Positions 15,741 to 33,623 of a stretch of DNA of 35,128 nt are shown one piece after another. Every line of letters starts with the position of its first letter. Within the stretch, counting starts at the first letter, position 1. Under the pieces are notes generated by a model. That model ran no database searches, had not been told where the DNA came from, and worked only from the letters and a program-made list of their open reading frames with translations. This stretch comes from a virus: the IMG/VR virus record IMGVR_UViG_3300031659_000037, positions 1 to 35,128 of that record; one strand, written 5' to 3'. Position numbers and translations under genes: made by a program.

Positions 15741-16615
15741 TGAGTATTTTTAGGGAGTTCGGGGGCCGTGCTTCGTATTACACGTCTAACGAATTAGATC
15801 GTTTAAAAAACCCTGACAAATACGATTACGACCAAGCAGGGTACGACTCTTATTCCGCGTCAGTGCAAAAGAAACACGATGCCCGACAAGCGGCGGATAC
15901 GGCGTCACGAGACGCTATTCCATATAGTTACGTGGGCCGCGGAACAGGGGACACAAACCCCGCCTTTAGTTTTGCCGGATATAGTGGTCACACTAGCGGC
16001 GGTACTGCCGGAAATGTAAACTTAGCTGGTACTGCCGGAGGCGGCAACATGCAATACAAAGCGGAAGGTGGAGTAATTTACCCCGTACAACATATGGAGG
16101 CAGGTGGCATGATTGTATCACCTTTCGCAAATCCGATGAAATCACAAATGGGTAATAAAGAAATGGTTCAACCAATGATGCAATCTATGGGTCCCGGTTC
16201 TATGCCAAGCCCTTTTGCTAAAAGCCAAGGTCCCGGTTCTATGAGAGGCGTGGGCGGTATGTTTGAAAACATGCAGAAACAGTTTGGTCAGCAGATGAGT
16301 CAAATGCAGTCTTCGCCGTTGAAGGTCTATGGTGATTATCTGAACCAAACGTACACTGGCGCACAAGAGGCCGCATTGCAGTCAAAAGTGACAGAATTTG
16401 TGGACCTCGTAGACCAAGCTGAACGTGCGCACTTTGGTGCGGAAGAAAGCTTTGGTTACGGTAAACCGGCTGCTCCCCCGCAAGCGATTCAAGGAAACGA
16501 TATGGGTATGCCAAGCCCTTTTGCTAAAAGCCAAGGTCCCGGACGAATGCATACCATGGGTCCCGGATCAATGTCCGGGGGCAGCGGTATAGCTTCTTTA
16601 CCTAATGCTTTTTAA
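15740..16615 (+). CDS. Gly/Met/Pro-rich virion-operon protein with internal repeats
   Basis: 291 residues; TAATG overlap with the 1289-residue gene. Begins MSIFREFGGRASYYTSNELD; has an EGGVIYPVQHMEAGG stretch and several GPGSM and MPSPFAKSQGPG repeats, including one DNA segment of 35 bp present twice (16202 and 16508). A central helix (about residues 170-250) contains many Gln and Glu. No known domain. Probably a tail or internal virion component. Confidence 0.6.
   Translation: MSIFREFGGRASYYTSNELDRLKNPDKYDYDQAGYDSYSASVQKKHDARQAADTASRDAIPYSYVGRGTGDTNPAFSFAGYSGHTSGGTAGNVNLAGTAGGGNMQYKAEGGVIYPVQHMEAGGMIVSPFANPMKSQMGNKEMVQPMMQSMGPGSMPSPFAKSQGPGSMRGVGGMFENMQKQFGQQMSQMQSSPLKVYGDYLNQTYTGAQEAALQSKVTEFVDLVDQAERAHFGAEESFGYGKPAAPPQAIQGNDMGMPSPFAKSQGPGRMHTMGPGSMSGGSGIASLPNAF
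16202..16236 (+). repeat. 35-bp direct repeat, copy 1
   Basis: Identical to 16508-16542 and 306 bp apart, a multiple of three. Encodes MPSPFAKSQGP in both copies of the 291-residue protein. Confidence 0.95.
16508..16542 (+). repeat. 35-bp direct repeat, copy 2
   Basis: Second copy of the repeat at 16202-16236. Recombination between the two copies would delete 102 codons in frame. Confidence 0.95.
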
Positions 16616-16617
16616 AT

Positions 16618-16767
16618 ATGGAAGTGATGGACGCGATAGGTGTAATCTGGCCAATTGCGGCGGCTTTCGTGACTCTGGTAATTGTGCTTGCCAAGATGCA
16701 CTCAGACATCGAGCAGATAAAAGAGAAAGTCCGTACCCTTTTTGAACTGTGGAACAAGAAGGACTAA
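16618..16767 (+). CDS. 49-residue membrane protein with coiled-coil tail, holin candidate
   Basis: A short gene starting 2 bases after the stop of the 291-residue gene. Residues about 5-25 (DAIGVIWPIAAAFVTLVIVL) are one membrane segment; residues 28-46 form a charged amphipathic helix (DIEQIKEKVRTLFELW). A membrane segment plus short coil is typical of small phage membrane proteins near lysis or virion genes. I propose a holin or spanin-like accessory, without proof. Its stop codon (16765-16767) overlaps the stop of the opposing helicase gene. Confidence 0.65.
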   Translation: MEVMDAIGVIWPIAAAFVTLVIVLAKMHSDIEQIKEKVRTLFELWNKKD

Positions 16768-18212: not shown

Positions 18213-18237
18213 TCTTGCCCCTATCTTTTAAAAACGC

Positions 18238-19734: not shown

Positions 19735-21270
19735 ATGTCAGTAGATAAATTTATGGCCATATTTGATGGCCTGAAGGAAGCTCACGGCTACTTCAAAATA
19801 GAGAACACAGGCGCGAACGGCAAAGCAAAAGGCAAAGCTGGCGTACTGAGAGAACCCCGAACAAAGAAACTTTGGGAAAACCACTTGTCGGGGACCGGCA
19901 GTGGATTGGGTATCATCCCAATAAATGAAAACAACATGTGTAAGTGGGGTTGTATCGACGTGGACCAGTATCCACTTGACCACAAGATGCTTGTTGATAA
20001 AGTAAGAAAGTTAAAATTACCTTTAGTAGTATGCCGATCCAAGTCTGGGGGTGCGCACTGCTTTTTATTCTCAACCGAATGGGTTTCAGCGAAGGACATG
20101 CAGCGTTCGCTTCAACAAATGTCCGCGGCCCTCGGTTATGGCGAAAGTGAGATATTCCCCAAGCAAATAAAATTACACCTAGACCGTGGTGACGTGGGAA
20201 ACTTTCTCAACCTTCCATACTATGATCACGAGAACGGCCTCCGATATGTAATATTGGATGACGGCACGTCTGGAACGTTAAACGAATTTATTGAGTTGCA
20301 TACTCAATATGCACAAACCCCGGAAGAAGTCGTTAAGCTACAAATAGTAGACAGTGGTGCTACCGACCTATTAAAGGACGGGCCACCGTGTTTGCAGATA
20401 CTGTGTAAGCAGCGCATTAGTGAAGGCGGTCGAAACAATGGTTTATTTAACATCGGAGTATACTTACGCAAAGCGTATCCGGACAGTTGGGAATCTGAAA
20501 TCTTGCGATTCAACATGGAGTATCTATCTCCGCCGTTACCATTGCCGGAGGTCAACATAGTTGCCAAGCAACTAGACCGCAAGGAATACGCCTACAAATG
20601 CTCTGACTCGCCAATTAACTCCTACTGCAACAAAGAGCTATGCCGTACCCGTAAGTTCGGCATAGGGGCCGCTGTAGCGGGCGCTACGGTAGCTAACCTA
20701 CGCAAGTATAACTCTACTCCCCCTGTCTGGTTTATGGACGTTAACGGGGAGCCTCTGGAGCTTGATACCGAAGCCTTGATGAGCCAGCCCATGTTTCAAA
20801 AAGCTTGCATGGAACAACTTAACTTCATGCCACGTTCTACTGCCAAGCAGCAGTGGGAAAGTCGTATTAGTACCTTGATGACTGAGATGCGTGATAACGA
20901 AAGCGCGATCATGGAAGTATCCGTGGACGCGAGTATTAGTGGTCAGTTCTATGACTATCTCGAAGAGTTCTGTAGTCACTTACAGCAGGCGCAGGATAAA
21001 GAAGAAATTTTGCTCCGCCGACCTTGGACTGATGAAGAGGAAGGGGTGACGTATTTCAGGTTAAAAGACTTTGAAAGTTATCTGAAGAAAAACAAATTCT
21101 TTGAGTACAAGTCGCATAGGATAGCTCAACGTTTGAGAGACATTAACGGCGACAGCATGGTATTGAAGATCAAAGGCCGCTCTGTGAGAGTCTGGAAGAT
21201 ACCTGCTTTTGAGAACAGTGATGTAGACTTAAAAACACCATCGTTTGGTGGACAGGAGGCACCATTTTGA
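19735..21270 (+). CDS. Archaeo-eukaryotic-type primase (TOTE/LigD-like AEP)
   Basis: 511 residues from ATG 19735; an in-frame ATG at 19723 (TATGGGGGCAAC context) is an alternative. The catalytic motifs are present: hydrophobic run then DVD (Asp75 and Asp77), SKSGGAHCF (His108) and GNFLNLPYYD (near residue 160). This pattern matches the AEP primase family found in TOTE systems and phage replicases, which makes primers and sometimes extends DNA. A C-terminal Cys cluster (Cys289, Cys298, Cys303 in CSDSPINSYCNKELC) resembles the metal-binding PriCT segments of such primases. The last 200 residues may carry DNA-binding helices. No DnaG or DnaB gene is present, so this is the likely replication primase. 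Confidence 0.85.
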   Translation: MSVDKFMAIFDGLKEAHGYFKIENTGANGKAKGKAGVLREPRTKKLWENHLSGTGSGLGIIPINENNMCKWGCIDVDQYPLDHKMLVDKVRKLKLPLVVCRSKSGGAHCFLFSTEWVSAKDMQRSLQQMSAALGYGESEIFPKQIKLHLDRGDVGNFLNLPYYDHENGLRYVILDDGTSGTLNEFIELHTQYAQTPEEVVKLQIVDSGATDLLKDGPPCLQILCKQRISEGGRNNGLFNIGVYLRKAYPDSWESEILRFNMEYLSPPLPLPEVNIVAKQLDRKEYAYKCSDSPINSYCNKELCRTRKFGIGAAVAGATVANLRKYNSTPPVWFMDVNGEPLELDTEALMSQPMFQKACMEQLNFMPRSTAKQQWESRISTLMTEMRDNESAIMEVSVDASISGQFYDYLEEFCSHLQQAQDKEEILLRRPWTDEEEGVTYFRLKDFESYLKKNKFFEYKSHRIAQRLRDINGDSMVLKIKGRSVRVWKIPAFENSDVDLKTPSFGGQEAPF

Positions 21271-21437
21271 GCCGCATGAAAAGTGCGTACTGGAGAACGG
21301 TACGCGACGCTGACATAGTTATCATGATTGATAAAGAGCGTATGACTATGACAGCAGTCGGAAAGTTTTGGGGAATATCAAAACAGCGTGTGCAACAGAT
21401 TTATAGCAGGGAGAAAAGGAAGGATGCACAAATTTAA
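21267..21437 (+). CDS. Small sigma-region-4-like HTH protein
   Basis: 56 residues from TTG 21267 (TTGA overlap with the primase stop, AGGAGG at 21254 well placed) or 53 from ATG 21276. Residues about 30-48 (MTAVGKFWGISKQRVQQIYSRE) read as a helix-turn-helix of the sigma-70 region 4 or LuxR kind. It may be a small transcription factor controlling the phage operons. No further domain. Overlaps the next gene by 14 bases. Confidence 0.6.
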   Translation: MSRMKSAYWRTVRDADIVIMIDKERMTMTAVGKFWGISKQRVQQIYSREKRKDAQI

Positions 21438-25678: not shown

Positions 25679-25707
25679 TTGACACGTATGCGATAATATG
25701 GGATAGT
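25679..25707 (+). promoter_or_regulatory. Promoter with operator-like TATGGGATA
   Basis: TTGACA (25679-25684), 17-base spacer, GATAGT (25702-25707). TATGGGATA at 25697-25705, the reverse complement of the 9-mer TATCCCATA, overlaps the -10. It starts the accessory operon at 25737, whose ribosome binding site is TTACGGAGA. Confidence 0.6.
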
Positions 25708-25736
25708 CCTCAAACCATCAATTACGGAGAGTAAAC

Positions 25737-26000
25737 ATGAAAGTTGAACTAAGTTATTACGAAATGGTAGAGGCGCTTGAAGATTTTGTAGAAAAAAAAT
25801 ATAACTTGAAACTTAATCTCGACGAAACAGAAACTGAGTTCAAGTACCGAAAAGATATTTATAAGCCTTTAAGATACAAAAACGGTAAAATAAAACATTG
25901 TCCCGTACATGGGTATGAACTAAAGACCCTTGATAGGTGGGAAACAAAGTATATAGCTTTCAACGAACGCTGTGAGATGCAGTTTTTTTTTGGAGCATGA
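25737..26000 (+). CDS. Small protein of unknown function ending in a T9 tract
   Basis: 87 residues; TTACGGAGA precedes the ATG. Acidic N-terminal half (YYEMVEALEDFVEKKY), then a more basic section with HCPVHGYEL. No family recognised. Nine T in a row at 25983-25991, just before the stop and the next ATG (ATGA overlap), form a slip-prone tract: a -1 shift would join this frame to the next gene. Confidence 0.6.
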   Translation: MKVELSYYEMVEALEDFVEKKYNLKLNLDETETEFKYRKDIYKPLRYKNGKIKHCPVHGYELKTLDRWETKYIAFNERCEMQFFFGA

Positions 26001-26278
26001 CTAAGATGGAACTAAAACCAATCGAGGAAGCACAAACAGAAGCCGAAAAGTTTTTTGAACGGGAAGACGTTCAAGCCCTTTTTCATGAAGCTTGTCGGCT
26101 GTCTACCTGTTCGCTGCCTAACTATCAATTAGGGAAAACACTTTGGAAGCGTATGTACGATGCGCCTCATCCGTCAAAACAAAAAAGGGATGAATTGTAT
26201 AAATTGGAAAGAGACCTTTTCCATGTTGCTTGCGCTTTAAACAGGCGCGTAGAAGCCATAACAATAAAAAAAGATTGA
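25997..26278 (+). CDS. Small helical protein of unknown function
   Basis: 93 residues, ATGA overlap with the gene before. Helical, with FHEACRLSTCSLPNYQLGK and a charged C-terminal half. No known domain. A terminator follows, closing this two-gene unit. Confidence 0.6.
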   Translation: MTKMELKPIEEAQTEAEKFFEREDVQALFHEACRLSTCSLPNYQLGKTLWKRMYDAPHPSKQKRDELYKLERDLFHVACALNRRVEAITIKKD

Positions 26279-26298
26279 AGACAATCTATATGATCCTG

Positions 26299-26322
26299 AA
26301 ACCCTGCTTCGGCGGGGTTTTT
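26299..26322 (+). terminator. Intrinsic terminator with TTCG loop
   Basis: AAACCCTGC and GCGGGGTTT (one T-G pair) close a TTCG tetraloop, followed by TTTTT. Ends the unit 25737-26278. Confidence 0.85.
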
Positions 26323-26323
26323 C

Positions 26324-26350
26324 TTGCATTCTTGTATATCTTCCTATAAT
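26324..26350 (+). promoter_or_regulatory. Promoter for the RHH / zinc-ribbon unit
   Basis: TATAAT at 26345-26350; TTGCAT at 26324-26329 gives a short 15-base spacer. The leader holds GGGGGCAT at 26363 and CGGAGAG before the ATG at 26385. Confidence 0.5.
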
Positions 26351-26384
26351 ATCGTAGATATCCGGGGGCATCGGAGAGAAAAAT

Positions 26385-26561
26385 ATGGATACAACACGTT
26401 GGAAAAGCATTCTCGTACCGCGAGAAGTGTACGAAGAGATTAAGGCGCTTTCTAAATCAGAAGGCAGAACCATTGGCGGACAGCTACGGCTAGTCTTCGA
26501 GTGGTATAAAGAAGCGGAGCATCGCAGCAATGACAGTGACGGATCAAACACCGGACAGTGA
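26385..26561 (+). CDS. Ribbon-helix-helix (Arc/MetJ-like) DNA-binding protein
   Basis: 58 residues; CGGAGAG precedes the ATG. WKSILVPREVYEEIKAL is a strand followed by helix, then SKSEGRTIGGQLRLVFEWYKE forms the second helix, the classic RHH order. RHH proteins bind operators as dimers and are typical small phage repressors. It has its own promoter next to operator-like sequences and is a candidate regulator of the cassettes. The acidic tail is short. The last 32 bases overlap the next gene. Confidence 0.65.
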   Translation: MDTTRWKSILVPREVYEEIKALSKSEGRTIGGQLRLVFEWYKEAEHRSNDSDGSNTGQ

Positions 26562-26706
26562 TGACATCGGTAAAAGGTTGAAAGAGAACCTTTGCCCGCG
26601 TTGCGAAACTAAATTGACATGGGTGTCTAAAACAGACGTAACCGCTACACGAAAGTGTAACCTATGCGGGATGCAAGTTTATGACGGCATCAATAAAGAA
26701 GGTTAA
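26530..26706 (+). CDS. Small zinc-ribbon protein
   Basis: 58 residues. CPRC (about residues 22-25) and CNLC (about 43-46) form a zinc ribbon; the intervening TKLTWVSKTDVTATRK is beta-like. Starts inside the RHH gene, so it is probably translated from the same message. Function unknown. Confidence 0.6.
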   Translation: MTVTDQTPDSDDIGKRLKENLCPRCETKLTWVSKTDVTATRKCNLCGMQVYDGINKEG

Positions 26707-26708
26707 TC

Positions 26709-26903
26709 ATGGTGTATGACCTCATTGTTCGAAGGGTTGGCGGTATGGGATACAAACCCGTTACCCGAAGCGAAGAGGGCTTTGGCTACCTGCCCATAAT
26801 TAAAAATGAGAACGGTAAAGAACTTTACCGCGGCGAATTTAAAGAAACTGCCGAAGAAGCGTTGCAAGCTTGTTCAGCAATGTTGGTTAAGATATGCGAT
26901 TAA
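26709..26903 (+). CDS. Small protein of unknown function
   Basis: 64 residues, 2 bases after the previous stop. Beta-rich N-terminus (VYDLIVRRVGGMGYKP) and a helical C-terminus (KETAEEALQACSAML). No family recognised. It contains the 9-mer TATGGGATA at 26744, possibly by chance. Confidence 0.6.
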   Translation: MVYDLIVRRVGGMGYKPVTRSEEGFGYLPIIKNENGKELYRGEFKETAEEALQACSAMLVKICD

Positions 26904-26906
26904 GTG

Positions 26907-26934
26907 TTGCTTATCCCATACCGGAGTGTATAAT
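26907..26934 (+). promoter_or_regulatory. Strong promoter ahead of a terminator leader
   Basis: TTGCTT (26907-26912), 16-base spacer, TATAAT (26929-26934). TATCCCATA at 26912-26920 lies in the spacer. Predicted start near 26941, exactly at an inverted repeat. Confidence 0.65.
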
Positions 26935-26940
26935 ACCCTT

Positions 26941-27009
26941 GAACATGCTAGTCATGTTCTCCGTAGTTGACCCAGACCCCAGTTCGGTTGCCCCCGGCTG
27001 GGGTCTTTT
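26941..27009 (+). ncRNA. Candidate ~70-nt structured RNA or attenuator leader
   Basis: From the predicted start site: hairpin GAACATG / CATGTTC (26941-26947 and 26953-26959, loop CTAGT), a 14-base linker, then an intrinsic terminator. A transcript stopping here would be about 69 nt with a hairpin at each end. Read-through would reach the gene at 27027. It could be a free small RNA or a control leader. Confidence 0.4.
26974..27009 (+). terminator. Intrinsic terminator inside the leader of gene 27027
   Basis: A perfect 9-bp stem, AGACCCCAG (26974-26982) with CTGGGGTCT (26998-27006), then TTTT. It sits between a promoter and the next gene rather than after a gene. Confidence 0.85.
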
Positions 27010-27026
27010 ACGTTAAGGAGACTAGA

Positions 27027-27233
27027 ATGGCGGATTTTGTAGACGGCCTCATGGCCAAACAACCAAACGAGAAGGCACCTGACTTCGTTAAGTGCGCACT
27101 CAGTATCAAAAGAACGGACCTCATCGCGTGGCTCACGGGCCAGACCGATGACTGGATCAACGTTCAAGTCAAAGAAAGTAAAGGTGGCAAATGGTATGCG
27201 GAGGTGGATACATGGAAGCCGAGAAGCGAGTAA
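27027..27233 (+). CDS. Small protein of unknown function
   Basis: 68 residues from ATG 27027 (TTAAGGAG upstream); the longer frame starting at 26967 runs through the terminator and is not used. Contains CALSIKRTDLIAWLTGQTDDWINVQVKE cut by a helix-strand pattern, as in small single-domain phage proteins. Function unknown. Expression may depend on read-through of the leader terminator. Confidence 0.6.
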   Translation: MADFVDGLMAKQPNEKAPDFVKCALSIKRTDLIAWLTGQTDDWINVQVKESKGGKWYAEVDTWKPRSE

Positions 27234-27388
27234 GCGACATCGAATGGTCTTGGGCCGTATCAACCATCAATAAGGTGGTGAACGAATCTTTAAATAAAGC
27301 CGAATGCGATGAACGATTAAAACCTAAACAACGATTGCAACGATCCCTAGAGATCGAAAAAGCATGGCAACGGATTTTACAGGGCTAA
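27212..27388 (+). CDS. Small basic helical protein, unknown function
   Basis: 58 residues from ATG 27212, with GCGGAGG just upstream, better than the in-frame ATG at 27191. Helical and charged (KVVNESLNKAECDERLKPKQR). Overlaps both neighbours by about 22 bases. No family recognised. Confidence 0.55.
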   Translation: MEAEKRVSDIEWSWAVSTINKVVNESLNKAECDERLKPKQRLQRSLEIEKAWQRILQG

Positions 27389-27540
27389 CCTTGGAAGCTC
27401 TCTCATTCATGCTTTTCGGAGCGTTTCTGGGGGTTATGTTCCGAGGTGCGTACTTGATCGTTCAGGATAAAGAACGAGAGTTCCAACGGCGCAAAAAATT
27501 AAGAGAGGAAAACCATGAAAGCACTACTAACCATAGATGA
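27364..27540 (+). CDS. Small single-pass membrane protein
   Basis: 58 residues. Residues about 10-33 (LEALSFMLFGAFLGVMFRGAY) are hydrophobic, followed by a basic helix (DKEREFQRRKKLREE). Starts inside the previous gene and ends inside the HTH gene, whose ribosome binding site GAGAGG it contains. The layout, one membrane segment plus charged tail, fits a holin-like or membrane accessory protein. Confidence 0.5.
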   Translation: MATDFTGLTLEALSFMLFGAFLGVMFRGAYLIVQDKEREFQRRKKLREENHESTTNHR

Positions 27541-27874
27541 AGTCTGCGCAATCGCAGGCGTATCCAAACCAACCGTGTACCGTAAGGTCAAACTCGGTGA
27601 GTTCCCAGCACCAACCAAGGTGCCAACAACCGCGGCCCGCGGACCAAAGCTCGTTAACCGCTGGAAGAAAGGCGAAATCCTAGATCACGTCAAAGCGCAT
27701 AGCGCACTTGAAGATACCGACGAACACTGGTATGAAAATGCGCCCGCGTCAAAAAAAGCATGGACCGAATGGGATAAGACTGCTGTCAGCGTAAGGTGCT
27801 ATGAACACAAGCATTCGATCCTAGCAGTAATCGGTGGAGTGCTGGCAGGTTTGGCCGTCTGGATATTTAAATAG
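27515..27874 (+). CDS. AlpA/excisionase-type HTH protein with C-terminal membrane anchor
   Basis: 119 residues. LLTIDEVCAIAGVSKPTVYRKVKLGEFP (split here by its turn at residue 16) is a MerR/AlpA-type winged HTH at residues 4-32, as in phage excisionases and activators. Residues 101-118 (SILAVIGGVLAGLAVWIF) form a C-terminal membrane segment ending one residue before the stop. The middle is polar. A DNA-binding domain tethered to the membrane is unusual for this family. It might regulate phage promoters in response to the membrane or anchor phage DNA. Preceded by AGAGAGG. Confidence 0.75.
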   Translation: MKALLTIDEVCAIAGVSKPTVYRKVKLGEFPAPTKVPTTAARGPKLVNRWKKGEILDHVKAHSALEDTDEHWYENAPASKKAWTEWDKTAVSVRCYEHKHSILAVIGGVLAGLAVWIFK

Positions 27875-28292
27875 GGGGTGACCCGCCCCCAGACTGTAAA
27901 GGAATGCAAGCAAGGGTGCCTGCGAGGAGTGCCATAAGGGCGGGCCAAAGCCATTATCCTATATAAAAAGGGTGCGGTCCACGGGTCGCGGAACACGAAA
28001 CACGGTTTCTACATATATAGACAGTAAATATAAAATATATTTTTTTGGTGAAAATAGGTGTAACTGGTGTAACCGTGTAACCGGAGCAGTTAAGCCTATG
28101 TTATATATAGAGATATACAGTTACATAAGTAGAAAACAAAAAAGTAACCGTAACCGAGTTTATGTAACCAGTAGGGAGCTTATTGCGTATAGCGGTTCTG
28201 AAAAGTTTTTATATTTATTTATATTTTACTTCCTATATATACCAAACGGCTCTAAGTTATATTAAACTATCGCTTAATAACTGGAGTATTAC
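27875..28292. other. AT-rich non-coding region before terS
   Basis: About 420 bases without a convincing gene. The left end has a GGGGG/CCCCC hairpin (27874-27890, no T run). From about 28010 the sequence becomes AT-rich and holds six direct and one inverted GTAAC box; another AT-rich stretch (28201-28270) runs up to the terS ribosome binding site CTGGAG. Candidates are a replication origin, a terminase-binding site or a repressor-operator cluster. Confidence 0.7.
28057..28169 (+). repeat. GTAACC iteron-like box cluster
   Basis: GTAAC(C) starts at 28060, 28069, 28077, 28144, 28150 and 28164; an inverted copy (GTTAC) is at 28120. The first three form GGTGTAAC-type near-tandem repeats with 8-9 bp steps and the next pair is 6 bp apart, all on AT-rich background. 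Confidence 0.75.
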
Positions 28293-28913
28293 ATGCCACG
28301 ATCTGCCGCACCTAAATCTGTTATACCTACACCGAAAAAGAAAGTAGGTAGACCCAAAGCCACAAAAGCCCAACCACTTACGCGAAGGCAGGAACTGTTT
28401 GTTAAAGAACTGGTTTCTAAAGATGGCCAGATAACTATGCGTGAAGCAGCCATCAATGCGGGTTATCCTGTTGGTTCCGCCCACACTAGAGCTTATGAGC
28501 TAACCAACCCAAACATTAGCCCCCATGTTGTTAACGCTATCCAAGCGTATCGCTCAGAACTGGATGCTAAATTTGGTGTTAACTACCAGCGACACCTAAA
28601 AGACCTGCAAACCATTAGAGACATGGCTTTGAACAATGGCGCGTACAGTGCTGCGGTTCAAGCCGAATACCGGCGAGGGCAAGCGCAAGGTGATATTTAT
28701 GTAAGCAAGAGTGAAATCAGAACTGGCAGCATCGACAGTATGAGCAAAGATGAAGTCATGAAGGCACTCAAGGAGATAAAACAAAGCTATGCCCCGATTA
28801 CTATCGACGTTACTCCCGAAGGAGAAAGCAATCCCCAAAACCGCGACAAAGCGCGAGGCCGACTTTTGGAGGCAGATGAAATCGGGGATGAAGAGGACCG
28901 GACGCGACATTAA
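28293..28913 (+). CDS. terS: Terminase small subunit
   Basis: 206 residues. After a basic Pro/Lys-rich start (KKKVGRPKATKAQPL) comes LTRRQELFVKELVSKDG..MREAAINAGYP, the N-terminal HTH of terminase small subunits, then a helical oligomerisation region and a charged C-terminal tail. The small subunit recognises phage DNA and loads the large subunit for packaging. The large subunit gene lies about 4.7 kb downstream instead of adjacent. The AT-rich repeat region directly upstream may contain its binding site. The end overlaps the nuclease gene by 125 bases. Confidence 0.8.
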   Translation: MPRSAAPKSVIPTPKKKVGRPKATKAQPLTRRQELFVKELVSKDGQITMREAAINAGYPVGSAHTRAYELTNPNISPHVVNAIQAYRSELDAKFGVNYQRHLKDLQTIRDMALNNGAYSAAVQAEYRRGQAQGDIYVSKSEIRTGSIDSMSKDEVMKALKEIKQSYAPITIDVTPEGESNPQNRDKARGRLLEADEIGDEEDRTRH

Positions 28914-29268
28914 AGCGACCCGGTTAGAGACTTGGGCAATGCCCGGAGTGCCTGACGTAGTTTTGTGTGATGAACGTGGTTTGTTTCACTTTGTAGAATT
29001 AAAAGCCACCGCAGGTAACGCGGTCGATCTTCGTCCCCACCAAGTGGCTTGGCTAACCAATCATGGGCACGGTAGCGTCTGGGTAATGCTTAAAAAGCAC
29101 AAAACTAAAAACCAACCTGAACAGCTATTCTTGTATAGAGGTTCGGAAGCAATGGACCTTAAAATGGAAGGTTTAAAGATTGAACCGTTTTACCATACAT
29201 CCGGCCCGGTAGACTGGGATTATGTATTCAACTTGATCTGTCCCACAACATCGCATACAATCCCATAG
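28789..29268 (+). CDS. VRR-NUC-type PD-(D/E)XK nuclease
   Basis: 159 residues from ATG 28789. GVPDVVLCDERGLFHFVELKA supplies the PD...ExK nuclease core in two short pieces (Asp of GVPDV, then Glu and Lys of VELK), and RPHQVAWL with VWVMLKK completes the VRR-NUC fold. EADFWRQMKSGMKR upstream fits the domain N-terminus, so the long start is preferred; ATG 28876 has GGAGG only 3 bases before it and would give 130 residues. Family members are structure-specific nucleases acting on branched DNA; role in resolving DNA before packaging is inferred. Deep overlap with terS. Confidence 0.8.
   Translation: MPRLLSTLLPKEKAIPKTATKREADFWRQMKSGMKRTGRDIKATRLETWAMPGVPDVVLCDERGLFHFVELKATAGNAVDLRPHQVAWLTNHGHGSVWVMLKKHKTKNQPEQLFLYRGSEAMDLKMEGLKIEPFYHTSGPVDWDYVFNLICPTTSHTIP
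29233..29261 (+). promoter_or_regulatory. Promoter inside the nuclease gene end
   Basis: TTGATC (29233-29238), 17-base spacer, TACAAT (29256-29261) in the context ATCGCATACAATCCCATAG. AATCCCATA (29259-29267) overlaps the -10. Drives the gene at 29295. Confidence 0.6.
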
Positions 29269-29294
29269 TCAACTTAACTAATGGAGAATTGACT

Positions 29295-29504
29295 ATGACT
29301 TATGATGAAAGGCACGGCGGGCCGTATGATCGCGGGACCGCAGATTTTTGGTACGGTAGACAATACGACCCTCATTTTTTTAAGGGCGCTACTCATTCCA
29401 CCGATAAGGTTGAACTGAAATATATGACGCCCGCGGAGATAACCGCTTACAGTAAAGGTTATAAAACTGCCGAAGCTAATGGCAGTCAAAAGGATTGGGG
29501 GTAA
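29295..29504 (+). CDS. Conserved small phage protein, unknown function
   Basis: 69 residues from ATG 29295 (GGAGA seven bases before). Starts MTYDERHGGPYDRGTADFWYGR and contains MTPAEITAYSKGY. I recall this HGGP(Y/F)DRG...Y motif in small proteins of many phages and some bacteria, all without known function. It has its own promoter of the shared family. Confidence 0.7.
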   Translation: MTYDERHGGPYDRGTADFWYGRQYDPHFFKGATHSTDKVELKYMTPAEITAYSKGYKTAEANGSQKDWG

Positions 29505-29505
29505 T

Positions 29506-29634
29506 ATGTTTTTTTTAATTAAATGGTGGGCAAGATTGCGTTATGGTTCGGATGAGGTTGATAAGTTTGAACGCGAGCGGAAACAACCCCGACCCCAAAA
29601 ACGACCGCGGCAACGGATAAAGCGCAGGCGGTAA
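29506..29634 (+). CDS. 42-residue Arg/Lys-rich protein
   Basis: ATG 29506 follows a GGGGGT purine run and begins two bases after the previous stop. MFFLIKWWARLR is a hydrophobic-aromatic start, and the last 20 residues are almost all Arg, Lys, Pro and Gln. It may be a nucleic-acid or membrane-binding peptide. The length and a T8 tract at 29509-29516 make the call tentative. A strong terminator follows. Confidence 0.45.
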   Translation: MFFLIKWWARLRYGSDEVDKFERERKQPRPQKRPRQRIKRRR

Positions 29635-29648
29635 GATTAAAAAATATT

Positions 29649-29673
29649 AGCCCGGTTGACTCCGGGCTTTTTT
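29649..29673 (+). terminator. Strong intrinsic terminator
   Basis: AGCCCGG (29649-29655), loop TTGACT, CCGGGCT (29662-29668), then TTTTTT to 29673. Ends the terS-to-29634 region and opens the cassette array. Confidence 0.92.
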
Positions 29674-29690
29674 ATGGTGTAAGGTATGCG

Positions 29691-29722
29691 ATAAATCTTA
29701 TACACAACTATGGGGGCAACCA
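29691..29722 (+). promoter_or_regulatory. Promoter leader of the permuted Cys-rich gene
   Basis: ATAAAT at 29691-29696 in the context TATGCGATAAATCTTATAC, matching the shared promoter family base for base around the -10; no clear -35. The leader contains TATGGGGGCAAC just before the ATG at 29722. Confidence 0.45.
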
Positions 29723-30468
29723 TGTTAAAGACAGTAGAAACAAGCCGAGCAGAAAAAACCAACGGGATCGCAGTAACCTATCGCGCAGGCAATGGCGAAA
29801 AGTATGCGACCTGCCCAGCATCTTGCAAAATGAATTGTAGCGGTAAAGGTGCGCAGGAAATTGACGCAGATTATTTTGATGCGTTATTGGATGCGGTTCC
29901 GAATAAAGGCCAGTCTTTTACCTATACGCATTTCAGTTGGAATAAATGGGCCGACAAATTAAAGCCGGGTAAAACGGTGGTTAACTTTTCTGCGGATACT
30001 TTAGTAAGTGCTGCCGCAGCATCGCGAGCGGTCCCGACCGTTGTAGTGCTTCCGGAATCCGAATGGCAGCACGGGAAAAAAACCAGCGCACCATTATTTG
30101 GTCGAACTAATAACCGCGGCGACTTTATAGTTTCGGACCGGGTGCCGGTGGTTCGCTGCCCCGCAGAATACCGCGACGGATTTAGCTGCCGCGATTGTGG
30201 GAACGGTGACCCGTTATGCGCTCGCCTAGATCGAAACTTTATAATTGGGTTTACTGCGCACGGCGCCCGCAAGAAAAAAGCAGCGGACCCGGAAACCCGT
30301 GGCGGATGTTATGCCGACGGCGGAAACGTTCGCCTACATTGGGACGCCACTAGCAACCACCACCAGCCCGACGAAACCGACGGCGAGAAACTAAAACGGT
30401 TCGCCAAGTCTTTACCCCCACGCAGTATTATACGGCACCATGTTGCCGGGGATATTGGAGCGGAATAA
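29722..30468 (+). CDS. Cys-rich DUF7227/gp88-like phage protein, apparently circularly permuted
   Basis: 248 residues from ATG 29722; an in-frame ATG at 29710 is possible. Motifs in order: CPASC (residues 31-35), TYTH (67-70), VVNFSADTL, VVRCPAEY (Cys146), SCRDCGNGDPLC (Cys156, 159, 166), GFTAHG (176-181), GGCYADGGNVRLHW (Cys196) and LPPRSIIRHHVAGDIG at the very C-terminus. These are all signatures I associate with DUF7227-like proteins, but there CYAQ.G...W and RH..AGD come before TYTH. The Cys and His suggest a metal or Fe-S centre; no activity is established. It has its own promoter and the gene is GC-richer than the replication block, as in acquired cassettes. Confidence 0.6.
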   Translation: MLKTVETSRAEKTNGIAVTYRAGNGEKYATCPASCKMNCSGKGAQEIDADYFDALLDAVPNKGQSFTYTHFSWNKWADKLKPGKTVVNFSADTLVSAAAASRAVPTVVVLPESEWQHGKKTSAPLFGRTNNRGDFIVSDRVPVVRCPAEYRDGFSCRDCGNGDPLCARLDRNFIIGFTAHGARKKKAADPETRGGCYADGGNVRLHWDATSNHHQPDETDGEKLKRFAKSLPPRSIIRHHVAGDIGAE

Positions 30469-30472
30469 CTTT

Positions 30473-30501
30473 TTTAAATATTAGGTTGCGCCGTATACAA
30501 T
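30473..30501 (+). promoter_or_regulatory. Promoter of the DUF932 cassette
   Basis: TTTAAA (30473-30478), 17-base spacer, TACAAT (30496-30501) in CCGTATACAATTTTATGGGACA. TATGGGACA at 30504-30512 is a one-mismatch version of the shared operator-like 9-mer. A terminator hairpin lies between it and the gene. Confidence 0.55.
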
Positions 30502-30516
30502 TTTATGGGACATTAT

Positions 30517-30546
30517 GGGGGGAGGGAGCAATTCCGCCCCCTTTTT
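30517..30546 (+). terminator. Terminator-like hairpin in the DUF932 leader
   Basis: GGGGG (30517-30521) with CCCCC (30537-30541), an interrupted inner stem and TTTTT at 30542-30546, followed within 20 bases by the gene's TACGGAGA site. May attenuate transcription started at 30508. Confidence 0.6.
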
Positions 30547-30566
30547 GTTTTTACGGAGAACATAAT

Positions 30567-31757
30567 ATGACTTATCAAACTAACGCATTTGCGCACGGGA
30601 TTGGCAATTCCGAAGTATCGTCACAGTGGTTTAGCCGCCCGGATGATCAAAAGTTTTTATCTCTTGATGACATGCTGGCCCATAAAAAAATAGACTCGCA
30701 ACGGATGACAAGCCGGACGGTTGACACCCACAAAATCCAGATTGTTGGAGAATTTGACGAAGCGAACCCTAGCCGCGGAGATTTGCGGATTGAATACGCT
30801 GACGACAACCACCGCGAGCACGTGAACAGTCCAACCAATTGGAGCTTTGGACAATTGTCCCAACTGGCCGGAGCGCCTGCGGGTTATCTTAAAGACTTGC
30901 CCGCACCCTTGGCAGCGGATTGCATTCAATGGGGTTTGAAATATAACCGGGGTAAAGAATTGATTAAGGTATACGGCAGTCAAACCGACGGCGGAGAATT
31001 GCGAGCCGCAACTGGTCCCGACTATGGCCGCATTTATGATTGGGAAATACTCGAACCAATTAAGCATTTGGTTGACCAATCCGGCGGACGTTGGAAAGTG
31101 CCGGGGATGATGACGGGAAGTAATAACGGCATGGCGGTTTATGATCCAGAAATACCCGTTTCAATGGATACCACCACATTGTTCGCCAGCGACCGCGACG
31201 TTTTCGTTTTCTTGGTGGATGATCGCAACCCTATCGAAGTCGGTAAGCTTGCCAACGGTGAGCCTGATTTAATGTTCCGCGGGTTTTATGCTTGGAACAG
31301 TGAGACCGGCAGCAAAACGGCAGGTATTGCGGCCATGTATCTGCGCGGGGTTTGTATGAATCGCAACCTATGGGGCGTCGAGAATTTCCAAGAGATTAAA
31401 ATAAGGCATACTAAATTTGCCCCGGATCGTTTCGCCTACGAAGCCCGCCCGGCTTTGGAAAGCTTTGCGCATGGTGCGACCGCTACATTTATCGAGGGCG
31501 TTCAAGCCGCGAAAGCTGCCAAGATTGCGACCGATGACGAAAGCCGTTTAGAGTTTCTAAGCAAACGCGCTGGACTATCTGGGCGCATGGCGAAAGCCGC
31601 AGCGGCGCGACATATGATAGAGGAAGGCCGACCGGTCGAGACGGTATGGGACGCAGCGCAGGCGATAACCGCAATCGCTCGCGATATACCGCACCAAGAT
31701 TCCCGGATTGAAGTAGAGAAAAAGGCCGGTGCGCTACTGGATAAAGTCGCAGCCTAG
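30567..31757 (+). CDS. DUF932 / TIGR03299-like phage-plasmid protein
   Basis: 396 residues from ATG 30567, with TTACGGAGA before it; the frame upstream of this crosses the terminator and is untranslated. LAGAPAGYLKDLPAPLAADCIQWGL, split here after LAGAPAGYLKDLP, together with ATGPDYGRIYDWEIL, ASDRDVFVFLVDD, MYLRGVCMNRNLWGVENF and a helical C-terminus (FLSKRAGL..AAARHM) match the DUF932 family, carried by many phages and plasmids. No biochemical role is proven; it is often in accessory loci. A stand-alone cassette with its own promoter and terminator. Confidence 0.82.
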   Translation: MTYQTNAFAHGIGNSEVSSQWFSRPDDQKFLSLDDMLAHKKIDSQRMTSRTVDTHKIQIVGEFDEANPSRGDLRIEYADDNHREHVNSPTNWSFGQLSQLAGAPAGYLKDLPAPLAADCIQWGLKYNRGKELIKVYGSQTDGGELRAATGPDYGRIYDWEILEPIKHLVDQSGGRWKVPGMMTGSNNGMAVYDPEIPVSMDTTTLFASDRDVFVFLVDDRNPIEVGKLANGEPDLMFRGFYAWNSETGSKTAGIAAMYLRGVCMNRNLWGVENFQEIKIRHTKFAPDRFAYEARPALESFAHGATATFIEGVQAAKAAKIATDDESRLEFLSKRAGLSGRMAKAAAARHMIEEGRPVETVWDAAQAITAIARDIPHQDSRIEVEKKAGALLDKVAA

Positions 31758-31777
31758 GCCAAACCGCAGCACCATCG

Positions 31778-31803
31778 AAGCCCGCCATTGTGCGGGCTTT
31801 TTT
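31778..31803 (+). terminator. Intrinsic terminator after DUF932
   Basis: AAGCCCGC (31778-31785), loop CATTGT, GCGGGCTT (31792-31799), then T to 31803. Same stem as the terminators at 32476 and 33133. Confidence 0.92.
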
Positions 31804-31810
31804 GTGGGGC

Positions 31811-31840
31811 TTTACTTTCCATAGAGTTATCCCATACAAT
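31811..31840 (+). promoter_or_regulatory. Promoter with two operator-like 9-mers
   Basis: TTTACT (31811-31816), 18-base spacer, TACAAT (31835-31840). TATCCCATA (31828-31836) and AATCCCATA (31838-31846) flank and overlap the -10. Leader has GGGGGCAATA at 31851 and CTACGGAGA before the ATG. Confidence 0.65.
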
Positions 31841-31887
31841 CCCATACACGGGGGCAATAAAGCCCGCGCAACTACGGAGAAAATAAA

Positions 31888-32301
31888 ATGGGCAATGTAA
31901 TAGAAATAAAGACGCGACCATCCGACGTGATACTGGACCGCGTTTATAATCCGTCAGAGGATGATAATTTTGGCGGGGCAACCCCTGCACAATTGACAGA
32001 AGCCTGTGGGCTGATCCCCGACTTCTTTTGTCAAGCTTGTTTGATGGCCTCACCTTTAACGCTGGAAAATATCGCCGCCGGTATGGATAGCGTCTACCAG
32101 TTCGGCGGGTTTGGATCGTATCCATACAAGGGCACCATTGATGACGAAGGCACTTATCAAAGCGAAGACAAAGATGATGACGCATTGCCCCCGTTGGCGC
32201 GTTTCATCTTCATGTACTTCGAGTGCTTTGTTTACGAGTACGGCATCGCAGCGATCCGCGACCGTGCGACCCGTCAAACTAAAATAGCGAGGTTTGACTA
32301 A
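31888..32301 (+). CDS. Acidic protein of unknown function
   Basis: 137 residues; ATG preceded by CTACGGAGA. Acidic, with FGGFGSYPYKGTIDDEGTYQ and PPLARFIFMYFECFVYEYG, an aromatic strand-like C-terminal half that recalls some short phage proteins of unknown role. Contains two Cys in FFCQACL. First gene of a two-gene cassette, followed with a one-base overlap. Confidence 0.6.
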   Translation: MGNVIEIKTRPSDVILDRVYNPSEDDNFGGATPAQLTEACGLIPDFFCQACLMASPLTLENIAAGMDSVYQFGGFGSYPYKGTIDDEGTYQSEDKDDDALPPLARFIFMYFECFVYEYGIAAIRDRATRQTKIARFD

Positions 32302-32456
32302 TGGACGCGCAAACAGAAAAGACACTGGCCGAACGGTTGTTGTTCCAGCTTCAATGGCTGGGTGTTATGGGCATGGCTGGCCGTGAAGATGAAGCCGACG
32401 CCGCCTATGTTAAGGCGCAGGAATACGCGCAGGAATTGATTGACGCTGGGCACTAA
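32301..32456 (+). CDS. 51-residue helical protein
   Basis: TAATG overlap with the gene before. Helical throughout (TLAERLLFQLQWLGVMGMAG; AAYVKAQEYAQELIDAG). No family recognised; the coupling suggests it works with the 137-residue protein. Confidence 0.6.
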   Translation: MDAQTEKTLAERLLFQLQWLGVMGMAGREDEADAAYVKAQEYAQELIDAGH

Positions 32457-32475
32457 ACCGGATCAATCCAACACT

Positions 32476-32500
32476 AAGCCCGCCACGTGCGGGCTTTTTT
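32476..32500 (+). terminator. Intrinsic terminator, duplicated sequence
   Basis: AAGCCCGC, loop CACGT, GCGGGCTT (32489-32496), then T to 32500. With its first C it is identical over 26 bases to the terminator at 33131-33156. Confidence 0.93.
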
Positions 32501-32507
32501 GTGGGGG

Positions 32508-32537
32508 TTGCGTTTATCGCATTCTATCGCGTATAAT
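32508..32537 (+). promoter_or_regulatory. Promoter of the 32589 cassette
   Basis: TTGCGT (32508-32513), 18-base spacer, TATAAT (32532-32537) in TCGCGTATAATCCCATAC; AATCCCATA at 32535-32543. The leader holds GGGGCC and a CGCGG/CCGCG hairpin (32553-32565). Confidence 0.65.
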
Positions 32538-32588
32538 CCCATACATCGGGGCCGCGGTGGCCGCGTGTTAATTACGGAGATTAAGACA

Positions 32589-32912
32589 ATGAGAAAAGAA
32601 ACCCAAAAAATCGCAGAGGCTTTTGCACGTGGGCAAGCGGCAAAGGCTGCGCGGACTGAAACGGACGGGCGCACTGTTTGGCTACATGGCAACCGGATTG
32701 CCCAGCGCGAAGATGATGGCAGCGTATGGGTCACCCTCGCAGGCTGGGGAACTGTTACCACCCGCGAACGCTTAAACGGTATCTGTCAGGAATTGGGCGC
32801 ACCCTTTGGCTTTTGCCAGCGGGACCATTCGCAGCGGGTAATAGTAAACGGCGCACTGTTAGACGTTGGCGATCATGACCGCGTTCAAATCATCGCAGGG
32901 GTTGCCGCATGA
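32589..32912 (+). CDS. Conserved small phage protein, unknown function
   Basis: 107 residues from ATG 32589, with TTACGGAGA upstream. TVWLHGNRIAQREDDGSVW and LAGWGTVTTRERLNGI form a pattern I recall in many phage accessory proteins (LHGN.IA...GW.T.TTRERLN), beta-rich and with unknown function. Cassette shared with the next gene through an ATGA overlap. Confidence 0.7.
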   Translation: MRKETQKIAEAFARGQAAKAARTETDGRTVWLHGNRIAQREDDGSVWVTLAGWGTVTTRERLNGICQELGAPFGFCQRDHSQRVIVNGALLDVGDHDRVQIIAGVAA

Positions 32913-33112
32913 TCGCCACTATTCAGCAAATGCCCCTTAAAGATGTCCCCCGCGGTGAGTTCGTCCGCCGCAAGCTGGACGCTAAAAAGACATATACCCG
33001 CGGGGACTATGACCGATCTAGTCGCACCTATTCGCTCGATGACTGGGACGATATAAGCCGCGCTGTGTACCTCAAAGGTGCCGCGCTTGTATGGGTTGGC
33101 TTCGAGTTCTAA
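32909..33112 (+). CDS. Conserved small phage/plasmid protein, unknown function
   Basis: 67 residues; ATGA overlap. LKDVPRGEFVRRKLDAKKTY and a C-terminal VYLKGAALVWVGFEF match a small family seen on phages and plasmids (DVPRGE.V.RK...VY.RG.Y), role unknown. Terminator follows. Confidence 0.7.
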   Translation: MIATIQQMPLKDVPRGEFVRRKLDAKKTYTRGDYDRSSRTYSLDDWDDISRAVYLKGAALVWVGFEF

Positions 33113-33132
33113 AGCCGCCCCAGTGCTACCCT

Positions 33133-33156
33133 AAGCCCGCCACGTGCGGGCTTTTT
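33133..33156 (+). terminator. Intrinsic terminator, duplicated sequence
   Basis: AAGCCCGC (33133-33140), loop CACGT, GCGGGCTT (33146-33153), then T to 33156. Copy of the terminator at 32476. Confidence 0.93.
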
Positions 33157-33280
33157 ATTGCCTAGTGTTTAAGAGTTAATTAAGGCGGGCCGTGCCCCGC
33201 GTACCAGTTCCCAAACCTACGGGCCGTGCTCCGTGGTCCGCTGGCCATTGGCCGTGCACCTTGGCCGCTGGCCGTTAACC

Positions 33281-33298
33281 GCTGCGCGAGCTGCGCGA
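33281..33298 (+). repeat. Tandem 9-bp repeat GCTGCGCGA
   Basis: Two exact adjacent copies inside the GC-rich non-coding region upstream of terL. Confidence 0.9.
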
Positions 33299-33569
33299 CG
33301 CGATGACCTCAGCCGGTGAAAGTTAACCCGCGTCCGGTCCGCCGTGGTCCGTGATCCGTTGCCCATTGCCCCCGGTCCATCCGCCGGGAAAAACGCGCAG
33401 GGTCCCCCTGATATCGGGTCAAAAGCCCCAGCCCGCGACCAATTCGAGGCGATCCGAGCGCCGCCGCCCCCCGCGGCTGCCTGCGGAGGCTAGGGCCATG
33501 TTTCTCGCGAATAATTACTATAAAATTTAAAATAAGGTTAACTGTCTTATATTTGTGCTTAAAATCGCA

Positions 33570-33575
33570 TACAAT
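33570..33575 (+). promoter_or_regulatory. -10 element of the terL promoter
   Basis: TACAAT in AAATCGCATACAATACG, sharing TCGCATACAAT with the promoter at 29256. No good -35; TTATAT at 33548 is the best. The predicted start near 33582 coincides with the first parS-like repeat. Confidence 0.5.
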
Positions 33576-33583
33576 ACGTGATA

Positions 33584-33599
33584 TGTTTCACGTGAAAAA
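33584..33599. promoter_or_regulatory. parS-like site 1
   Basis: TGTTTCACGTGAAAAA, 15 of 16 bases matching the palindromic bacterial centromere site TGTTTCACGTGAAACA. It lies in an 18-bp direct repeat (CGTGATATGTTTCACGTG, 33577-33594). Confidence 0.75.
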
Positions 33600-33607
33600 T
33601 CGTGATA

Positions 33608-33623
33608 TGTTTCACGTGGAACA
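33608..33623. promoter_or_regulatory. parS-like site 2
   Basis: TGTTTCACGTGGAACA, the exact reverse complement of the known parS sequence TGTTCCACGTGAAACA. It lies in the second copy of the 18-bp repeat (33601-33618), 24 bp from the first. Confidence 0.85.

Follow-up and report, generated by a model that had tools for sequence, protein, structure and literature searches.

The Arc repressor of phage P22, a member of the MetJ/Arc superfamily, binds as two dimers to a single 21-bp operator, and gp71 of mycobacteriophage L5 recognizes stoperators, many copies of one repressor site across the phage genome, each a single 13-bp asymmetric site and many of them outside promoters. Ribbon-helix-helix (RHH) proteins occupy operators as cooperatively binding dimers and repress genes, frequently their own, by occlusion (PMC5569661). 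They act in this way in archaeal viruses, where AvtR of AFV6 has multiple sites in the genome, is a repressor of its own gene and extends from strong sites to degenerate ones (PMC5569661), and on plasmids, where ParR binds the tandem direct 10-bp repeats of parC with one dimer per iteron (PMC5016525). Direct repeats that vary in number and are spaced by roughly a helical turn (9 bp) are also bound at promoters by BldC, a MerR-like winged helix-turn-helix (HTH) protein (PMC5859096). Here, we describe a family of proposed operator arrays at promoters, and a candidate RHH regulator, in a 35,128-base stretch of viral DNA (hereafter the window; positions 1 to 35,128 of IMG/VR virus record IMGVR_UViG_3300031659_000037), which is probably a fragment of a longer genome, the longest relatives reaching 54–57 kb.

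A preliminary description of this DNA had noted a recurrent, operator-like 9-mer and suggested a single regulator. We suggest, with a probability of about 0.68, that the 9-mers are parts of a phased array bound by an Arc-like RHH protein, which would repress through promoter occlusion and regulate its own gene. Such a regulon would be of a known kind, and the direct 10-bp arrays over seven promoters appear to be its distinctive form. The L5 stoperators have in common with the arrays the use of many copies of one putative phage repressor site, the arrays being phased and located on core promoters. The ParR-parC system resembles them in its RHH protein and its tandem direct 10-bp repeats, but comprises a single long iteron block with an actin-like motor, in contrast to the short arrays at many promoters seen here.

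Proposed operator units with a 10-bp period

The 9-mer WATCCCATA is present in seven exact copies in the window, compared with 0.46 expected, and none of 100 dinucleotide shuffles reaches seven. It is ~40-fold denser in intergenic DNA (5 copies in 1,982 bp, 2.52 per kb) than in coding DNA (2 in 33,146 bp, 0.06 per kb; Fisher p = 1e-5), and one of the two "coding" copies, at 29,259, lies at the extreme end of an open reading frame (ORF) and within a promoter. The positions given in the preliminary description are correct (25,697 on the − strand, 26,912, 29,259, 31,828, 31,838, 32,535 and, with one mismatch, 30,504). The statement that the 9-mer is always located in or beside a −10 box is not strictly true: an additional exact copy at 26,744 (− strand) is coding, and the site at 26,912 occupies the spacer between the −35 and −10 rather than the −10 itself. 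The longer 17-mer said to be shared by several sites, TCGCATACAATCCCATA, is exact only once, at 29,251, with one mismatch at 31,830 and two at 32,527.

Lining up the sites side by side reveals that the 9-mer samples part of the pattern and that the actual unit is the 7-mer TCSCATA, with variants TCTTATA, TCCTATA and TTGYATA, arranged head-to-tail exactly 10 bp apart. It is this 10-bp period, rather than the 9-mer, that constitutes the signal. Relatives were collected through their DUF932 and DNA polymerase genes, yielding 159 loci, two of which are segments of the window. Within these loci, 167 same-strand pairs of exact TCSCATA units have a spacing of 10 bp, three a spacing of 9, nine of 20 and one of 42; up to 60 bp, all other spacings are unrepresented. 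When one mismatch is allowed in the partner, period 10 accounts for 268 pairs, as opposed to at most 16 at other periods below 20. The pairs span 95 distinct 107-bp contexts, and thus copies of one locus are excluded; the window itself contains three exact pairs, each with a 10-bp spacing. With units one helical turn (10 bp) apart, all units of an array are placed on one face of the DNA.

The 7-letter site is found at approximately nine promoters of the window, of which seven bear arrays of two or three units and the other two bear one isolated unit and two opposed units, respectively. The arrays occupy the core promoter (spacer, −10 and start), from just past the −35 to about the start, and are present in either orientation between −35 and +1 at the promoters of 25737, 29295, 30567, 31888 and 32589, with weaker arrays at those of the terminase gene 33661 and the RHH gene 26385. 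A position-matrix scan of the window returns as its six best three-unit matches the promoters of 29295, DUF932, 32589, RHH, 25737 and the terminase large subunit (TerL), followed by coding matches that score 11.4, about the level of other periods. The best match (score 34.1) is TCCCACA aca TCGCATA caa TCCCATA at 29,241–29,267 (+ strand) upstream of 29295, under which lies TTGATC-N17-TACAAT at 29,233–29,261. Similarly, TCGCATT cta TCGCGTA taa TCCCATA at 32,517–32,543 (+ strand, 26.3), upstream of 32589, covers TTGCGT-N18-TATAAT at 32,508–32,537, and CCCCATA atg TCCCATA aaa TTGTATA at 30,494–30,520 (− strand, 26.5) is located upstream of 30567, the DUF932 gene. Two-unit arrays are formed by TCCCATA caa TCCCATA at 31,830–31,846 (+ strand, two-unit score 25.3), over the TACAAT −10 (31,835–31,840) upstream of 31888, and by TCCCATA nnn TCGCATA at 25,687–25,703 (− strand, 25.1; per-promoter shuffle p = 0.003), in the spacer after TTGACA (25,679–25,684) upstream of ORF 25737. 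The weakest of the six best three-unit sites is that of the TerL promoter, TCTTATA ttt GTGCTTA aaa TCGCATA at 33,545–33,571 (+ strand, 12.7; per-promoter shuffle p = 0.003); the terminase promoters of 31 relatives have a mean score of 14.4 at period 10 versus at most −3.5 at the other periods from 7 to 14.

Arrays are conserved in the orthologous upstream regions of 29295 (30/36), DUF932 (48/51, on the opposite strand), 31888 (39/49), 32589 (4/4) and 25737 (3/3), and are found in none of those of primase, UvrD, polA and TerS. The early promoter at 18,213 likewise has no array, and the early replication genes are without arrays. The conservation in relatives strongly supports the earlier proposal of one shared operator for the accessory genes, the cassettes and the terminase neighbourhood. 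Relatives of one gene of this phage group, which comprises uncultured aquatic phages, are encoded in more than 270 IMG/VR stretches; the real three-unit arrays in IMG/VR are confined to this group, the remaining matches being unrelated sequences, and none was found in the 50 kb searched in each of four cultured or sequenced relatives. A tandem 10-mer, ATCGCATACC, is present in two unrelated viral contigs, L166 (6,651–6,727, at least eight copies) and L176 (from 773). The 418-bp intergenic region before TerS (27,875–28,292) contains repeated GTAACC/GTGTAAC words and AT-rich runs and has no operator array.

The RHH protein and its own promoter

The 58-residue protein encoded at 26,385–26,561 (+ strand), which the preliminary description had already named as a candidate regulator, appears to be the best candidate: it is nearly invariant, and the promoter of its gene has what seems to be a similar array. 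All 46 loci extending from polA to TerS encode it, and residues W6, K7, S8, L10, V11 and P12 are invariant among 49 distinct proteins; by analogy with Arc, these strand residues presumably face the DNA. Foldseek searches with an AlphaFold2 (AF2) model return MatP, Arc, CdbA, CopG and AmrZ as the best folds, with probabilities of up to 0.99, and the helix register is, by our own reading, of the PREV...EGR type, as in Arc. The RHH promoter carries the degenerate array TTGTATA tct TCCTATA ata TCGTAGA at 26,332–26,358 (+ strand), with period 10, over TTGCAT-N17-TAATAT. When RHH promoters are excluded from the training of the matrix, this array is the fourth-best three-unit match in the window, and RHH promoters average +18.4 at period 10 but at most −0.2 at periods 7–9 and 11–14. 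The signature is present in 51 of 55 distinct upstream regions, also in divergent RHH relatives, and a more distant locus with an RHH protein of 65% identity (L179) keeps TCCTATA tat TCGCTTA. Autoregulation would accord with such a putative operator in front of the RHH gene itself. The interpretation in the preliminary description is supported in part; it overlooked this array as well as the parS sites described below.

We suggest that the RHH protein binds cooperatively, with one dimer per unit, and that the bound protein would keep host RNA polymerase off the core promoters. The presence of arrays in both orientations suits a blocking operator and led us to reject a promoter specific to a phage polymerase. 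The arrays may also activate rather than repress. Given the degeneracy of the array in front of its gene, the RHH protein would restrain its own synthesis only when more abundant, and the number of units and the quality of their match may grade the order of repression, such that accessory genes would be shut off first and late genes least. The arrays would then provide a readable regulatory code, with a likely regulator named, for a group of uncultured aquatic phages, making the timing of accessory and packaging genes predictable from sequence and a probable regulon of the RHH type, with direct repeats of 10 bp, traceable across many relatives.

The RHH protein resembles Arc in size, in fold match (1par) and in being, as we propose, a phage-encoded repressor acting at promoters, but differs in the strand residues (W6/S8/L10) and in the use of two to three direct units at seven promoters. 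AvtR is likewise a viral RHH regulator, and its spreading to degenerate sites may have a parallel here; unlike the phage protein, it is a fused double RHH of archaeal context with an imperfect inverted-repeat consensus (PMC5569661).

Several observations weigh against this assignment. The match to Pfam RHH_5 (E = 0.001, 19.2 bits) is below the curated cut-off of 26, so that the assignment to the family is based on its fold, length and register rather than on a significant profile match. A PDB profile search gives no significant RHH match, the best being AvtR (E 0.45), and the Foldseek E-values, at 0.047 or above, are weak for a protein this small. The AF2 monomer model contains helices at residues 13–26 and 30–50, the strand not being assigned in the monomer. 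The RHH promoter has a degenerate array, whose match is due partly to −10-like sequence; the signature is absent from the RHH promoter of one locus with a divergent RHH (L051); and conservation of the protein could reflect another role. In addition, two promoters fit the array model less well. That of the 27027 operon has a single TCCCATA at 26,914–26,920 (+ strand), between TTGCTT (26,907–26,912) and TATAAT (26,929–26,934), with no phased second unit; ATCSCATA is retained in 36 of 41 orthologous upstream regions. Upstream of 29722 (DUF7227), the opposed units TATGCGA taaa TCTTATA at 29,685–29,702 are conserved, but do not form a period-10 array; of 46 DUF7227 upstream regions, 28 have TATGSGA N4 TCTTATA and 39 have an exact unit.

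Other possible readers of the arrays

The direct repeats at first led us to favour an HTH_17/AlpA-like protein encoded at 27,515–27,874 (+ strand; PF12728, 1.1e-7), which as a MerR/AlpA-type HTH might oligomerize head-to-tail on the arrays in the manner of BldC. It is detected in 42 of the 46 spanning loci, and in some relatives a TCCCATA unit is located in the promoter of the orthologue itself. However, its recognition helix diverges strongly, from SKPTVYRK to KAKPTIYRRT, SKSTVFKK and SPSTVYYR, while TCSCATA is unchanged, and arrays persist unaltered in four loci with divergent helices (L036, L055, L082 and L153). One locus bears five arrays although its RHH–TerS interval contains no HTH gene (L077), another has no homologue by tblastn (L179) and a third has only a very diverged one (L042), so that a MerR-like HTH is not consistently encoded with the sites, as it would be in a BldC-type system. 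The BldC repeat, AATTnnnnC, also has a different period of 9 bp. The hydrophobic C-terminal segment of 27515 is conserved and may be a membrane anchor, which adds to the case against it, and we regard this protein as an unlikely reader. In one relative (L116), the orthologue appears to be an HTH-RHH fusion, in which the HTH protein continues as a second RHH domain (RWKSILVPREVYEEIKDMSKSEGRTIGRQLRLVF). Searches in cultured phages yielded no useful homologues of either 27515 or the RHH protein. The small HTH protein at 21,267–21,437 (+ strand; weak PHROG matches), which the preliminary description had also proposed for gel shifts, is disfavoured because its recognition helix switches from SKQRVQQI to SRERIRQI with no change in the operator.

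Recognition by a host transcription factor or nucleoid protein would accord with the overlap between arrays and host-type promoters, and the host-type parS in the same terminase promoter makes the use of host factors plausible. It is nonetheless quite unlikely given the restriction of three-unit arrays to this phage group, their absence from the 50 kb searched in each of four cultured or sequenced relatives, and the fact that the phage itself encodes an RHH protein that hardly varies and whose promoter has an array. The occurrence of TACAAT or TATAAT at the unit junction in several copies (29,256, 31,835 and 32,532) might suggest a conserved core-promoter element, namely an extended −10 plus initiator. 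We consider this very unlikely, since the arrays stand in both orientations relative to transcription (those of 25737 and DUF932 being on the − strand), some lie entirely within the spacer, the 10-bp repeats extend to three units and the early promoter at 18,213 has no array. Chance, that is, a short AT-rich word near AT-rich promoters, would account for the letters that the unit shares with −10 boxes, but can be practically discounted in view of the shuffled sequences, both of the window and of single promoters, and of the strict period in relatives.

parS sites at the terminase promoter

A short distance downstream, the terminase array is followed by two parS-like sites, TGTTTCACGTGAAAAA at 33,584–33,599 and TGTTTCACGTGGAACA at 33,608–33,623, each with one mismatch to the 16-bp parS sequence (TGTTTCACGTGAAACA or TGTTCCACGTGGAACA), which is matched exactly in relatives. 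With at most one mismatch, parS is found in 50 of 54 TerL upstream regions and is exact in 49 of the 54, some of these loci being the same contig. Both kinds of parS are often present, 23–25 bp apart and in either order, and in the alignment of terminase upstream regions the parS core is fixed, whereas the flanks vary freely. Searches of 17 related records, some of them fragmentary, detected neither ParB (PF02195) nor an integrase domain. Given that these records yielded no ParB gene, the sites are presumably read by the ParB of the host. In Pseudomonas aeruginosa, ParB represses promoters adjoining parS3 and parS4 (PMC5521831), which provides a precedent for a regulatory role of parS. Among the papers listed in literature searches, none was a direct precedent for a phage that relies on host ParB by way of parS. 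We tentatively propose, although we would sooner bet against it than for it, that the terminase promoter is doubly wired, by a weak RHH array and by parS read by host ParB, which would silence the packaging and late genes until displaced, or else would let the phage, which has no detectable integrase, be positioned and shared out through the host segregation machinery in a carrier state. The parS link would be the more surprising part of the system and is less tested than the arrays, and the conservation of parS at the terminase makes the use of a host centromere protein by ParB-less phages directly testable.

Exact parS is present in at least 120 IMG/VR stretches and is thus not unique to this phage group. 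No arrays or parS were found near the gene in alphaproteobacterial genomes with DUF932 relatives; the DUF932 relatives in bacterial genomes include two metagenome-assembled genome (MAG) contigs that resemble phage contigs of this group. The long intergenic stretch between 33112 and the terminase promoter (33,113–33,560) is rich in GGCCGT/CCGTGG repeats. The cultured SAR11 phage HTVC027P, a Pelagibacter phage (L190), has CGTTTCACGTGAAACA at 16,412, with one mismatch to parS, and this site falls between features annotated at 15,983–16,207 and 16,499–16,747.

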